The notes beneath the pieces are model-generated. The model was not told the DNA's origin, ran no database searches, and was given only the letters and a program-made list of their open reading frames with translations. A stretch of DNA of 45,702 nucleotides from Anaerolineae bacterium (lineage in GTDB: Bacteria > Chloroflexota > Anaerolineae > Aggregatilineales > Ch27): the NCBI GenBank assembly GCA_013178165.1, contig JABLXG010000026.1:1-45702 (forward strand), written 5' to 3'. Both the position numbers and the translations under genes were made by a program. How positions within the stretch are numbered: position 1 is the first letter of the stretch; each line of letters starts with the position of its first letter. Positions 3,064-8,678 of this stretch are shown here, piece after piece.

Positions 3064-3897
3064 TCAGGCCGGTTCGGCGTGGCCCAGCAGGCGACTCCCC
3101 ACGAAGGACACCACAAACAGGATGGTGGTGATCAGGACGATCGCCGGGCCAGAGGCAATATTGAGATAAAAGGAAAGATACAGGCCGACCACCCCGCTCA
3201 AGGCGCCCAAGGCGGCAGCCAGAATCATCATGTGATGCAGCCGTCGCGCCAGCAACTGGGCGGTAGCCGCAGGTGTGACCAGCATGGCCACCATCAGGGC
3301 GACGCCGACCGTCTGCAGGCTGGCGACAACCGTCACCGCCAGCAACACCAGCAACAGCAGGCGCAGCGCGCCATCCGGCAGGTGCAGCGTCCGCGCCAGG
3401 GTGGGATCAAAGCTGAGGATCAGGAATTCTTTGTACAGCGCTACAATAGTCAGGACGACGACCGCGCCACAGACGGCCATGATCAGCAGGTCGGTATCGC
3501 TGACGCCCAGCACGTTGCCAAAGAGGATATGCGCCAGGTCGACGCTGTAGCTGCGGGCCGTGCTGATGATGGCGATACCCAGGGCGAACATCCCGGCAAA
3601 GACCACGCCGATGGCTGTATCTTCCTTCAGGCGACCTTCCCGGGTCAGCCAGCCAATGCCCAGAGCTACCGCTACGCCAGCGATCAGCCCGCCTAGAAAC
3701 AGCGTCTGTCCCATGATGTAAGCTACGGCCACGCCGGGCAGCGTGCCGTGCGCGACCGCATCCCCAAAGAAGGCCATACCGCGCACAACGACAAAACTGC
3801 CGATTACCCCGCTGACCAGGCCAATCAGCAACACGGCCAGTAGCGCGCGCTGCATAAAGGCAAACTGAAGCGGATCAAGCAGGAATCCCAGGTCCAT
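3064..3897 (-). CDS. znuB: Zinc/manganese ABC transporter permease (ZnuB/MntB-like)
   Basis: This is a 277-residue polytopic membrane protein of the ABC-3 family, which forms the channel of Zn2+/Mn2+/Fe2+ importers together with a binding protein and an ATPase. Hydrophobic helices start with the segment after MQRALLA and run to the C-terminus. The GMAFFGDAVAHGTLPGVAVA block matches the conserved cytoplasmic loop of this family that contacts the ATPase. The frame is open upstream to 4038, but that part would overlap the ATPase gene by over 130 bases. The ATG at 3897 has GAGGGG just before it and gives the normal length, with a gap of 7 bases after the ATPase stop. It is the last gene of the fur-znuACB operon. 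The metal is inferred as zinc from the regulator and its site. Confidence 0.87.
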   Translation of the reverse strand: MDLGFLLDPLQFAFMQRALLAVLLIGLVSGVIGSFVVVRGMAFFGDAVAHGTLPGVAVAYIMGQTLFLGGLIAGVAVALGIGWLTREGRLKEDTAIGVVFAGMFALGIAIISTARSYSVDLAHILFGNVLGVSDTDLLIMAVCGAVVVLTIVALYKEFLILSFDPTLARTLHLPDGALRLLLLVLLAVTVVASLQTVGVALMVAMLVTPAATAQLLARRLHHMMILAAALGALSGVVGLYLSFYLNIASGPAIVLITTILFVVSFVGSRLLGHAEPA

Positions 3898-3904
3898 CCA
3901 CCCC

Positions 3905-4744
3905 TCAGCTTTCTTCGTTGTCTTCGCCAGCAGGACCGTGCTCATCCACCACCACGACGGTTTCCGCACCCTGGTGGATGATCCCGATCTGGCCGCGGTA
4001 AGCGCGGCTGAGCGCTTCAGTGGTGAAGACCTCAGCACTCGTCCCGTAGGCGATGACCTCCTGGTTGATCAACAACAGGCGGTCGAAACGGCTGGCTGCC
4101 AGGCTCATGTCGTGGGTAGCCAGGATGATGGTCACGCCCTGGGCATGCAGCGCTTCCAGGACGGCCATGATCTCCTCGCTGGCGGTAGCATCCACCCCGC
4201 TGAACGGCTCATCCAGGAGCAGAACGCTGGTCTGCTGGGCCAGCGCACGGGCGATGAAGACGCGCCGCCGCTGCCCGCCGCTGAGCTGGCCGATCTGCCG
4301 GTCGCGGAAGGCCAGCATCCCCACCCGTTCCAGTTCGGCGTCGACGGCTTCCCAGTCGCGGCGACCCGGCCAGCGCAGCCAGCCCAGCTGGCGGGCGCGG
4401 CCCATCATCACCACATCCCGCACACTAACCGGGAAACGCCAGTCGATGGCTTCGTACTGGGGCACATAACCGATCAGGCGATGGCTGACAGCGCACTCCT
4501 CGCCGTACATGGAGATGAAGCCGCTGGTATGCGGGATCAGCCCGACAATCGCCTTAAACAGGGTGCTTTTGCCCGCCCCGTTGGGGCCGAGCACGGCCAC
4601 ACTCTCCCCCGGCTGCACAGCAAAGGAGATATTCCGGATGGCCGAGCGTGCGCCGGGGTAACCCGCCGACAGCCCCTGCACCAGCAGTGCGGGGCAACCA
4701 TCAACAGCCGGAAGGGCGATCTTCAACGAGGGGTGGCTGGCCAT
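3905..4744 (-). CDS. znuC: Zinc/manganese ABC transporter ATP-binding protein (ZnuC/MntA-like)
   Basis: The 279-residue ATPase powers metal import. Visible motifs are Walker A GPNGAGKST at 53-61, a Q-loop in YVPQYE near 96, the ABC signature LSGGQ at 154-158, Walker B LLLDEP at 175-180 and the H-loop His211. The WRFPVSVRDVV segment after the Q-loop is typical of the Zn/Mn/Fe subfamily (family 5 of the metal importers). The C-terminal tail after residue 255 is acidic (DEHGPAGEDNEE). The gene starts 19 bases after the stop of the binding-protein gene and ends 7 bases before the permease start, so the three are translated from one message. Confidence 0.9.
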   Translation of the reverse strand: MASHPSLKIALPAVDGCPALLVQGLSAGYPGARSAIRNISFAVQPGESVAVLGPNGAGKSTLFKAIVGLIPHTSGFISMYGEECAVSHRLIGYVPQYEAIDWRFPVSVRDVVMMGRARQLGWLRWPGRRDWEAVDAELERVGMLAFRDRQIGQLSGGQRRRVFIARALAQQTSVLLLDEPFSGVDATASEEIMAVLEALHAQGVTIILATHDMSLAASRFDRLLLINQEVIAYGTSAEVFTTEALSRAYRGQIGIIHQGAETVVVVDEHGPAGEDNEES

Positions 4745-4763
4745 GGCGGCAATCTCCGGCGGG

Positions 4764-5867
4764 TTAATTCACCGTCCCGCCCAGGGCGGCGGTGATCACC
4801 CGCGTGTTGTAACGCAAGTACTCCGGGTAGGTCGCGGCGGGGCCACCCGGCTCGCTCAGGGAGCCAGTGTAGAGCGTATAGAAGCGGACCCCCGTCTCCC
4901 GTGCGATCTGCTCGGCCAGGGCCGGGTTGGCAATGGTCTCTGTGAACACCGCAGGCACGCCGGTAGCACGGATATCGCTAATCAGCCGGGCGATATCCGC
5001 CGCGCTTGGCTCGGCCAGCGTGCTGGCCCCGGGGATGACTGTACCCAGCACCTTCAGCCCGAAGGCGCTGGCGTAGTAGTTGAAGGTCAGATGGTTGGTG
5101 ACCAGCAACCGGTTACCTTCCGGGATTGTCGCCAGCATCGGCGCGATTTCCTCGCGAACCAGCGTCTGCAGCGTATCGATGATAGCGGTGGCGGTGGCAG
5201 CGTAAACGGCAGCGTTGGCCGGATCGCGCTCGCTCAGGGCGTCGCGGATCATCAGCGCCCATAGCATGGCGTTATAGGGGTCGGTCCACACGTGCGGGTC
5301 ACACCGGCCATGCGCATGCTCATCGCCAGCTTGTTCTTCGCCGCCGCAATCCAGCTGGTAGAGCGGCCCCAGCCTGCCTTCAGTGGGTGGAGGCAACAGG
5401 CCAATGGACGCCAGTTCCTCCTGGTGAGCGGCGCACTGCCCGGCAAAGGTGCCCACATCGCCAGAGAGCAGGTACTCCTCAAGCTCACCGGTTTCCGGAA
5501 ACTTGCCAAACGGCAGGATATCCACGCAGGTCGAGACCGTGACCGGTGCCAGGTCCGGAGCCGCGCCGCGGATGGTTTCCAGCAGGCTTTCCTCCAGGTT
5601 AGCGCCCACGATCAGGATCAGATCGGCCTGCGCCAGCCGCACCAGATCCTGCGGGGAGGGTGTGTAGCTGTGCGGATCAGCGCCCGGCGGCATCAGCGAA
5701 ACGACCTCGGCGGCTTCGCCGGCAACGCTGGCGGCGATATCGGCCAGGATGCTGGTGCTGGCCACCACCTGCAGCCGATCCTGCGCCTGCACACCTCCGC
5801 CGGGGAGTACACCGAGCACCAGTACCAGGCTCAACAGCACAATCCCCATCCGGCAATTTTGACCCAT
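4764..5867 (-). CDS. znuA: Zinc/manganese ABC transporter substrate-binding protein (ZnuA/TroA-like)
   Basis: This is the extracellular metal receptor of the importer, 367 residues with a signal peptide at 1-28 (hydrophobic core, cleavage near VQAQ). The mature part has the two-lobed TroA fold. Probable metal ligands are His66 in DPHSY, His192 in DPHVWTDP and His259 in TNHL, with an acidic residue in the C-terminal lobe as the fourth. A short His/Asp/Glu stretch (GDEHAHGRCD, about 181-190) resembles the metal-collecting loop of ZnuA proteins, though shorter. The region 120-180 is an insertion with two Cys and many acidic residues. The ATG at 5867 is preceded by TAGGATT. A Zur-box-like palindrome lies 15-29 bases upstream. 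No lipobox is evident, so anchoring would be by an uncleaved signal or partner binding. Confidence 0.87.
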   Translation of the reverse strand: MGQNCRMGIVLLSLVLVLGVLPGGGVQAQDRLQVVASTSILADIAASVAGEAAEVVSLMPPGADPHSYTPSPQDLVRLAQADLILIVGANLEESLLETIRGAAPDLAPVTVSTCVDILPFGKFPETGELEEYLLSGDVGTFAGQCAAHQEELASIGLLPPPTEGRLGPLYQLDCGGEEQAGDEHAHGRCDPHVWTDPYNAMLWALMIRDALSERDPANAAVYAATATAIIDTLQTLVREEIAPMLATIPEGNRLLVTNHLTFNYYASAFGLKVLGTVIPGASTLAEPSAADIARLISDIRATGVPAVFTETIANPALAEQIARETGVRFYTLYTGSLSEPGGPAATYPEYLRYNTRVITAALGGTVN

Positions 5868-5881
5868 AGTCCAATCCTAAT

Positions 5882-5896
5882 TGAAAGACTTTTTCA
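5882..5896. promoter_or_regulatory. Zur/Fur-box-like palindrome before znuA
   Basis: The 15-bp sequence TGAAAGACTTTTTCA is a dyad with five-base arms (TGAAA and TTTCA). Read on the minus strand it is TGAAAAAGTCTTTCA, matching 12 of 15 positions of the TGAAAATGATTTTCA-type Zur box known from Actinobacteria (from memory). It sits between the fur-family gene and znuA, just upstream of the znuA ribosome site, so it could repress znuACB in metal-replete cells. Confidence 0.55.
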
Positions 5897-5930
5897 GTTC
5901 TGATGAATCCTACCATGTTTGCCGGGCCAG

Positions 5931-6371
5931 TCAATCCCCGGCCCGCTGGCACTCCGGGCAGAGGCCGGCGATCTCCAGCCAGTGGCTGGTGATGCGGTAG
6001 CCGGTGCGGGCAGTGATCTCTTCAAGGTAGGCGCTCAGGTCGCAGCCTTCGATTTCTACCACGCGGTTGCAACGCTGACAGATGACGTGATGGGTATGGC
6101 CGGGCGAACACAGCGCGTAAGCGTGGCAGTTGTCCAGTAAGTGCACCGGGCGAACCAGCCCCAGCCCCGCCAGCACTTCCAGCGTGCGGTACACCGTCAC
6201 CAGGCCGATGTCGGCAGCGTGCGCCCGCGCTGCTGTGTGCAGTTCGGCGATCGAAAGCGGTCGGGCTGCTTCTTCCAGCGCCAGGATCACTGCCCGGCGA
6301 GCACGGGTCAGCTTGAAGCCATGCTGGTGAAGCCGGGCAGCCAGCGATTGTGAGGGTAGGATTGCCATCAT
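5931..6371 (-). CDS. Fur/Zur family metal-responsive transcriptional repressor
   Basis: This is a 146-residue Fur-family regulator with the usual winged-helix DNA-binding half (GFKLTRARRAVILAL, then the VTVYRTLEVL recognition region at about 58-67) and a C-terminal metal-binding dimerisation half. It has two CxxC pairs, Cys98/Cys101 and Cys138/Cys141, which would hold the structural zinc, and a His cluster (GHTHHVIC, 91-98) for the regulatory metal. The frame is open further upstream to 6539, but that extension overlaps the preceding gene and carries no conserved sequence. The start is set at the double ATG (6371 or 6368) with GGAAGAAAG about 13 bases ahead. Its position first in the operon with znuACB and the palindrome before znuA support a zinc-sensing role. 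Iron or manganese is possible. Confidence 0.87.
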   Translation of the reverse strand: MMAILPSQSLAARLHQHGFKLTRARRAVILALEEAARPLSIAELHTAARAHAADIGLVTVYRTLEVLAGLGLVRPVHLLDNCHAYALCSPGHTHHVICQRCNRVVEIEGCDLSAYLEEITARTGYRITSHWLEIAGLCPECQRAGD

Positions 6372-6454
6372 CTGTCTGAGACTTTCTTCCAGGGGCGGGC
6401 CAGCGCCCCCGCCATGCACTGTCGATTGTACCCGATCGCGGCGCTTCGCGGCCC

Positions 6455-7624
6455 TCAGCGGAAAGCCGGCGCCCATTCCGGCAGAAATGCGTCGGCGACC
6501 AGCTTGCTGATCTGACCAGAGGTCGTGTCCAGGACCCACAGGCTGGGCCGCGCCTCCTGCCCGGCCACCGGACTCGCCACCGCCGGGAAGCGCTGGATGA
6601 CCAGCCGCACGCCGTCCGGCTCCCAGGCGAAAGCGCCCGTGGCGTATGCCGGATCGACAGCCAGCGGCTTGGCGTCGCCATTGCTCGCCGCGACCAGATA
6701 AAGCTGATGACCGGGCGTATACCCCTCATCCATCAGACGGCGTCCCACCACCAGCGCGGTCCCCTTAGGCGTCCAGAGCAGCCGGGCATCATCAACCGGT
6801 GCATCCGGCGCGGAGAGCGCCGTAATCTGCCCCGTCCGCAGGTCGGCCATCCTGATATGGGTGTAGAACGCTGTTTCTGAGGCAAAGACGATGTCCAGGT
6901 AAGCCAGCCGCGCACCATCCGGGGAAAATATACCTGTGCTGCCATGCAGGGTAGGCAAGAAGGCATCCGCGCCGCCGGTCAGGTCGTGGATCAGGATGCC
7001 GCTGTTTTGCAGGTCATAGGAAGCCAGCCGCGTCCCATCCGGCGACCACACCGGCCCTACCGTGTAAAGGGCTTCATCCTCAAACAGGGGGGCGTTGACC
7101 GGCGTAGCCCCGGACAGATCGAGCACCCAGACGCGGGTCGGACGGACATTCGCCCCGCCGGCGGTTCCAGGCGTACGCTCATAGGCCAGGCGCATCCCAT
7201 CCGGGGACCAGGCGGGGGCGGTGCAGTCATCCGGAGCGCAGGCGACCAGCGTGCTGATCTCGTCGGTTGCCCGGTCGAGCAGACGCAGATCGATCCCGCC
7301 TTCTGCGCTGTACTCGCTGAAGGCGATCTGCGCGCCATCCGGGCTGACAGCAAAGTCATAGACGCCAGAAGCGCTGGACGTGACCGGGATGGCCTGGGTC
7401 GGGGCCGCCGGATCGAGCAGGTGGATATTGGCCGGGGCGCCGCCCGCCGGGGCCAGAAAAGCGATCAGCGGGCCGCTGCCGGGTTGCGGGGCGCTGCTGC
7501 GGGCCGGAAGGCTCCCGGCGACCAATCCCAGCAGCGTGACCAGCGCCGCCACAACTGCCAGCCCGATCAGGGCGACCAACCCGGCCCGGCGCGACAAAGA
7601 AAGGAAAGCCTCGAAGGGGATCAT
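6455..7624 (-). CDS. Membrane-anchored PD40/TolB-like beta-propeller protein
   Basis: The 389-residue protein has one N-terminal membrane segment (about residues 13-37) and then an extracytoplasmic beta-propeller. The blades carry the WD40-like PD40 signature: SPDGAQIAF, SPDGMRLAY, SPDGTRLAS, SPDGARLAY, TPKGTALVV and EPDGVRLVI, so at least six blades are visible. Such propellers bind proteins, peptides or polysaccharides. No catalytic residues can be assigned. The gene follows the thioredoxin-like gene by 27 bases on the same strand and precedes fur by 83 bases, so it may share transcription with either. Function is unknown. Confidence 0.78.
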   Translation of the reverse strand: MIPFEAFLSLSRRAGLVALIGLAVVAALVTLLGLVAGSLPARSSAPQPGSGPLIAFLAPAGGAPANIHLLDPAAPTQAIPVTSSASGVYDFAVSPDGAQIAFSEYSAEGGIDLRLLDRATDEISTLVACAPDDCTAPAWSPDGMRLAYERTPGTAGGANVRPTRVWVLDLSGATPVNAPLFEDEALYTVGPVWSPDGTRLASYDLQNSGILIHDLTGGADAFLPTLHGSTGIFSPDGARLAYLDIVFASETAFYTHIRMADLRTGQITALSAPDAPVDDARLLWTPKGTALVVGRRLMDEGYTPGHQLYLVAASNGDAKPLAVDPAYATGAFAWEPDGVRLVIQRFPAVASPVAGQEARPSLWVLDTTSGQISKLVADAFLPEWAPAFR

Positions 7625-7651: not shown

Positions 7652-8149
7652 CTAGCTGCGACCAAAGGTCAGCGCCAGGCGGATGTCTTCCAGCCGTGGC
7701 AGGCTATTGGCGCGGAGCACCTCGCGCCCTTCCGGCGTAAAAACCAGAAAAGTTGGCGAAAAAACGAATTCAAAGCGGTCGGCCAAGGCGCTGCCAAGCG
7801 CATCGTGGATGTTGAGCAACAGCGAGTCGATTCCGGCGGAGGATAGCTCGGCGGTCAGATCGCGCACGGCGGGCAGAATCGCCAGGCAAGCCACACAGTA
7901 GTTGGAATAGAGCATCACAAACGTCGGCTGCTCATTGGTCAGGATGACCTCCGCTTCCGCCAGGCTGCTCACCTCCGGCGGCGGATACTGGCGGGACAGG
8001 CCAAAGGCCAGTGCTCCCAGCACGTACAACATCAACAGCCCGGCCCGCAACCACCTGCCGCCCTCCCGCCAGCGCCACAGCACAAAAGCCAGGATCGCCC
8101 CCAGCCCGACGCTGATCCAGACATAAGAGAACTGGTTGATGATATTCAC
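7652..8149 (-). CDS. Membrane-anchored thioredoxin-like protein with CVAC motif
   Basis: The protein has two N-terminal hydrophobic segments followed by a thioredoxin-like domain. The motif YSNYCVACLAILP resembles the WCxxC active site of thioredoxin-fold proteins, and the later SPTFLVF stretch corresponds to the cis-proline loop. It is probably an extracytoplasmic thiol oxidoreductase or a cytochrome-maturation-type protein. The GTG at 8149 is chosen as start, giving 165 residues, because the open frame upstream (to 8269) is Arg-rich and unlike a membrane protein N-terminus. GGGAGG lies some distance upstream, so the start is not certain. It lies next to the SelW-like selenoprotein gene, which is also a thioredoxin-fold redox protein on the same strand. 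Confidence 0.7.
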   Translation of the reverse strand: MNIINQFSYVWISVGLGAILAFVLWRWREGGRWLRAGLLMLYVLGALAFGLSRQYPPPEVSSLAEAEVILTNEQPTFVMLYSNYCVACLAILPAVRDLTAELSSAGIDSLLLNIHDALGSALADRFEFVFSPTFLVFTPEGREVLRANSLPRLEDIRLALTFGRS

Positions 8150-8286
8150 GGCAACCCACCCAGCCTCCCAGAGGCAACAGCGCCTCCCGCCCTGACCTCG
8201 CCGCCTATTGTAGCCGGTCGCTGGTAGCGGGCCAAACAACGGCCGCTGGCGCTCACCCCGTCCTGGCACATGCTGCGGTCGGATGG

Positions 8287-8556
8287 TCAGGCGCCCGCCT
8301 GCAGGGCGGCGATGAGCGCTTCCAGCAGGCGGCGGATCTCGCCCGGCTCGGCATGACGGCCCAGCGCCTTTTTGGAAAAGAGCATCTCGCCATTCACGCT
8401 AAACTCAAAGACGCCCCCTTTGCTGGGAATCAGCTTCCACGAGGCAATGTGCACTTCAAGCTCCCGGAGGCCCAGGATTTCTTCCGTCACCCTGACGGCG
8501 CGCGGCGTGTAGCCTCACAGGGCACAGTATTCAAGCGTGACATCGAGCGACAGCAT
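8287..8556 (-). CDS. SelW/Rdx-family selenoprotein (in-frame TGA as selenocysteine)
   Basis: Read from the ATG at 8556, the frame encodes 89 residues with TGA at codon 14 (8515-8517). The surrounding peptide is EYCALUGY, exactly the CxxU redox motif and following GY of the SelW/SelT/SelH (Rdx) family. Downstream it continues with the conserved GGVFEFSVNGEMLFSKK block (47-63) and a final amphipathic helix, and the length matches SelW proteins (about 87 residues). AAAGGA lies ten bases before the ATG. An annotation that treats TGA as stop would begin at the GTG at 8490 and lose the active site. A hairpin with features of a bacterial SECIS follows the TGA. Members of this family have a thioredoxin-like fold and are thought to act in redox control. 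The substrate is unknown. SelA, SelB, SelC and SelD would have to be encoded elsewhere. Confidence 0.88.
8484..8498 (-). promoter_or_regulatory. Candidate bacterial SECIS hairpin of the SelW-like gene
   Basis: The minus strand reads CCGTCA-GGG-TGACGG, a perfect six-base-pair stem with a GGG loop. The loop starts 22 bases after the TGA at 8515-8517. The general bSECIS model asks for an apical stem-loop about 16-37 bases downstream with a G in the first two loop positions, and both conditions are met. The hairpin lies inside the coding sequence, as in all known bacterial selenoprotein genes. Confidence 0.75.
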
Positions 8557-8678
8557 AATCAGATCATCCTTTCGCTGAGGGCGCGGGCTTGATTATAGCT
8601 GGTGCTATGCGCATTGCCGCTGTTTCCTGTATGATGAGAAAGGATCAAACCTCAGCAACAAGCAGGAGAACGGCATGT

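Follow-up and report, generated by a model that had tools for sequence, protein, structure and literature searches.

The window, a stretch of 45,702 nucleotides that makes up contig C26 of an Anaerolineae bacterium, carries a bacterial SelW-like gene of the Rdx family, in which the UGA at codon 14 is very probably read as selenocysteine (Sec). We give this reading, a prediction made from sequence, a probability of about 0.97. An earlier note on this DNA had proposed that the TGA encodes Sec, and that proposal now has in silico support from the conservation of the codon, the sel genes of the same genome, in-frame TGA codons where the genes for SelD and formate dehydrogenase alpha (FdhA) usually encode Sec, and a covarying hairpin downstream of the TGA.

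According to the mechanism that we propose, the ribosome would read UGA codon 14 of selW as Sec, and SelB with Sec-tRNA(UCA) would bind a hairpin that lies 17-31 nt past this codon. The protein would adopt a thioredoxin-like fold, carry a CxxU redox site and probably act as a small thiol/selenol oxidoreductase.

The gene and its family

The reading frame starts at ATG 8556, crosses the internal TGA at 8517-8515 and ends with a TGA stop at 8289-8287, all on the minus strand (Table 1). Its product reads MLSLDVTLEYCALUGYTPRAV...LQAGA and has 89 residues with a single internal TGA, in agreement with the frame described in the earlier note. Without readthrough, the longest open reading frame in this frame (table 11) is a GTG-started fragment of 67 residues at 8490-8287. 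It begins after the TGA and lacks the active site, as had been foreseen for standard gene calling.

Table 1. Features of the selW-like locus, in window coordinates.
Feature	Coordinates	Strand	Description
selW-like selenoprotein gene	8287..8556	-	89 residues when translated with TGA as U; predicted Sec at position 14; CxxU = C11/U14
In-frame TGA, putative selenocysteine codon	8515..8517	-	Codon 14; TGA in 100/102 loci, Cys TGT in the other 2 (count as defined in the text)
bSECIS-like hairpin	8484..8498	-	CCGUCA-GGG-UGACGG; 5-6 bp stem; apical loop GGG at 8490-8492; 22 nt after the TGA
Possible ribosome binding site	8562..8574	-	AAAGGA ~10 nt 5′ of the ATG, proposed from the sequence only; AGCGAAAGGAT kept in the same-genus relative
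Thioredoxin-like protein gene, 3′ of selW	7652..8269	-	CxxC in NYCVACL; Pfam Thioredoxin E 5e-4, below the curated cut-off

The translation was matched by Pfam Rdx (PF10262) with 53.5 bits against a cut-off of 22.6, residues 6-78 aligning to positions 2-72 of the 74 in the profile, and by TIGR02174 CXXU_selWTH with 45.4 bits (cut-off 34.2). The best NCBIfam E value was that of NF041051 SelTWH_Campy (2.8e-21, 75.5 bits). We did not assign the protein to this equivalog because the score is under the curated cut-off of 88. The CxxU redox motif, C11-A-L-U14, follows the first beta strand, and in the correctly placed alignment rows of all relatives, codon 11 was TGC or TGT and codon 14 was TGA or TGT. 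The TGA aligns with the conserved Sec/Cys position of Rdx/SelW proteins, where the earlier note had placed it. Structural relatives detected by sequence comparison were mammalian selenoprotein W (2npb) and the bacterial Rdx proteins 2fa8, 3dex and 2p0g; these matches are weak to moderate (E values of 1.5e-7 to 2e-3) and span most of the domain.

Among the listed bacterial selenoprotein families are SelW-like proteins with CxxU (PMC9312934). A bacterial survey of 2006 already included them and noted that Cys homologs were rare or absent in organisms that use Sec (PMC1794560), and in the Global Ocean Sampling marine metagenomes no other prokaryotic selenoprotein family was as numerous (PMC2398784). 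The protein shares with the known bacterial SelW-like selenoproteins (PF10262 Rdx, CxxU; TIGR02174) the CxxU motif near the N terminus, the length, the in-frame TGA and the downstream bSECIS, and nothing of substance differs, the host here being an uncultured Chloroflexota bacterium, probably a member of the Aggregatilineales. Few bacterial selenoproteins are as common as the SelW-like CxxU proteins, and the gene is an ordinary member of a known family that brings no new principle; the earlier note may have overrated its novelty. For annotation, the consequence is that gene callers without Sec decoding would miss the protein or call only a piece of it that lacks the active site.

Conservation of the in-frame TGA in relatives

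A scan of public genomes yielded 80 loci, all 80 with TGA at codon 14; the peptide patterns used exclude the TGA codon and hence do not select for it, although they are biased to close relatives. The loci came mainly from Chloroflexota, with some from Gemmatimonadota, Actinomycetota, Planctomycetota and Armatimonadota and one from a Bacillaceae bin. We also searched 61 genomes as relatives, the source genome included. Matches were found in 21, with TGA in 20 of them and TGT, which encodes Cys, in the other (G023). One TGA genome, G053, has in addition a distant second selW copy with TGT. Over all loci examined, codon 14 was TGA in 100 of 102 and the Cys codon TGT in 2, in a count that takes in the locus described here and counts some genomes twice. 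Chance can be excluded as the origin of the TGA, because it sits at the redox residue of the family and is kept in nearly all of these loci. Within this set of relatives, the Sec type of SelW is frequent among Anaerolineae.

In the same-genus relative, the SelW-like protein is 89% identical and the TGA is kept, and the codon changes on both sides of it are mostly synonymous. These data bear on the possibility that translation really ends at this TGA, in which case the gene would be a pseudogene in decay or would encode the GTG-started protein of 67 residues. The short open reading frame after the TGA does exist, but its product would be missing the CxxU site, and both the retention of the TGA across loci and the purifying selection on codons before and after it contradict a stop. 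We therefore regard termination at codon 14 as highly improbable.

A covarying hairpin downstream of the TGA

In bacteria, Sec insertion depends on a hairpin within the reading frame, whereas that of mammalian selenoprotein W depends on a 3′-UTR element. The earlier note had described a 6-bp hairpin with a GGG loop 22 bases past the TGA and had suggested folding the region. The location and the pairs were as described, but the hairpin was not significant by energy alone: in single-sequence folding its energy was no better than that of shuffled sequences (z between -0.9 and +0.1). As folding of one sequence gave no significant hairpin, we turned to covariation across relatives.

The test was run on 93 distinct relatives, placed in register codon by codon from the TGA onward, and considered five core pairs. 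These were formed in 94.4% of cells, counted as sequences and not as independent events, compared with a mean of 77.4% and a maximum of 81.3% in 200 trials of a synonymous-codon null. All five core pairs were intact in 85% of sequences versus 21% in the null. When the register was shifted by 1 to 4 bases, pairing fell from 94% to 14-63%. Changes on both sides were seen at four of the five core pairs (C-G to U-A twice, G-C to A-U, and U-A to C-G). The loop G was invariant across the 93 relatives, compared with 70% in the null, and the next base was U in 83% versus 28%. The hairpin, bSECIS-like in form, owes its significance and its support to this covariation across relatives.

The published bSECIS model has an apical loop of 3-9 nt with a G in the first two positions, after which G or U is frequent, a stem of 4-16 bp, a distance of 16-37 nt from the UGA and an energy of at most -7.5 kcal/mol (PMC13188914). 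The hairpin agrees with the loop, stem and distance rules (loop GGG, 6 bp, 22 nt from the TGA to the loop). The 40 nt after the TGA are within the energy limit (-11.9), but the minimal 15-nt hairpin is not (-6.5).

Selenocysteine machinery and other selenoprotein genes

The source genome comprises 4.19 Mb in 52 contigs and is 98.6% complete. We looked in it for sel genes one family at a time, along the lines of the search for selA, selB, selC and selD that the earlier note had suggested. Genes for SelA (545 bits), SelB (353 bits) and SelD (372 bits) were found with scores over the cut-offs, as was a tRNA-Sec gene (73.6 bits) to which ARAGORN assigned the anticodon UCA. Further matches to the tRNA-Sec model proved to be tRNA-Ser genes and were removed by ARAGORN. 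The genome thus holds the full set that defines the Sec-decoding trait, selA, selB, selD and tRNA-Sec, which bears out the Sec decoding system that had been surmised for the organism. Absence of the sel genes, or TGC, TGT or TGG at 8515-8517, had been named as grounds to reject the proposal; the genes are present, and the codon is TGA.

Two other genes of the source genome have one in-frame TGA each at the classical Sec site, selD in the context SCAGUASKLGP (L018:1460-1560) and fdhA in the context CARLUHSS (L131). As SelW, SelD and FdhA all carry a Sec-site TGA, the genome has at least three selenoprotein genes. These results also address the idea that TGA is reassigned throughout the genome, to an amino acid such as Trp or Gly, or that its readthrough takes another route, independent of SelB. 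An open frame across the TGA would by itself leave the inserted residue unspecified. Against such a reading, however, the selW gene itself terminates in TGA, a tRNA-Sec with anticodon UCA is encoded in the genome, both selD and fdhA have TGA where Sec is usual, and the Cys homologs carry TGT; we see next to no chance for it.

The source assembly is a multi-contig draft and probably a metagenome bin, like those of its relatives, so genes on separate contigs could in principle derive from a mixed bin. This concern is countered by a second genome of the same genus (G001), which carries the same set: selA, selB, selD with its TGA, tRNA-Sec and a SelW gene with TGA. An error of sequencing or assembly that turned TGC or TGT into TGA, conceivable for a window taken from a draft, is refuted by dozens of species that were assembled independently and have the same TGA, and its probability is negligible.

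Co-occurrence of Sec genes with the TGA and Cys forms

selA was found in 18 of the 20 TGA-bearing genomes. The TGA genome G031 gave no selA match; because selB, tRNA-Sec and a TGA-bearing selD are present there, we read this absence as probably a gap in the bin. In G042, a bin that is 81% complete, selA, selB, selD and tRNA-Sec were all searched for and none was found, and its SelW gene has the TGA and an intact hairpin (L030 / L108). That relatives of this type read through the UGA of SelW by a route other than the standard bacterial machinery, or lost that machinery very recently, seems very unlikely.

The genome with the Cys form (G023; TGT), of the same order and 95% complete, was likewise searched for selA, selB, selD and tRNA-Sec, and none was found. 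This is what one would expect if Cys replaces Sec upon loss of the trait, and in this one genome checked, the Cys form accompanies the absence of Sec genes. As a separate observation, at the G023 locus (L115) the hairpin consensus appeared by eye to be absent downstream of the TGT codon.

Gene neighborhood

The thioredoxin-like gene 3′ of selW is possibly cotranscribed with it. In a synteny comparison, this neighbor adjoined selW only in the same-genus relative. Genes for an FHA-domain protein and a creatininase-like protein upstream of selW are more widely kept, with the FHA gene on the opposite strand, or further away. We read the presence of these two genes as shared genome context and not as a sign that they are functionally linked to selW.

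Elsewhere in the window, the minus strand at 3064-6539 encodes a Fur-type regulator and a ZnuA-like metal-binding protein (Pfam). Beside them lie genes that, judged from their sequences alone, appear to encode an ABC ATPase and a membrane permease, an arrangement that resembles a metal uptake cluster.
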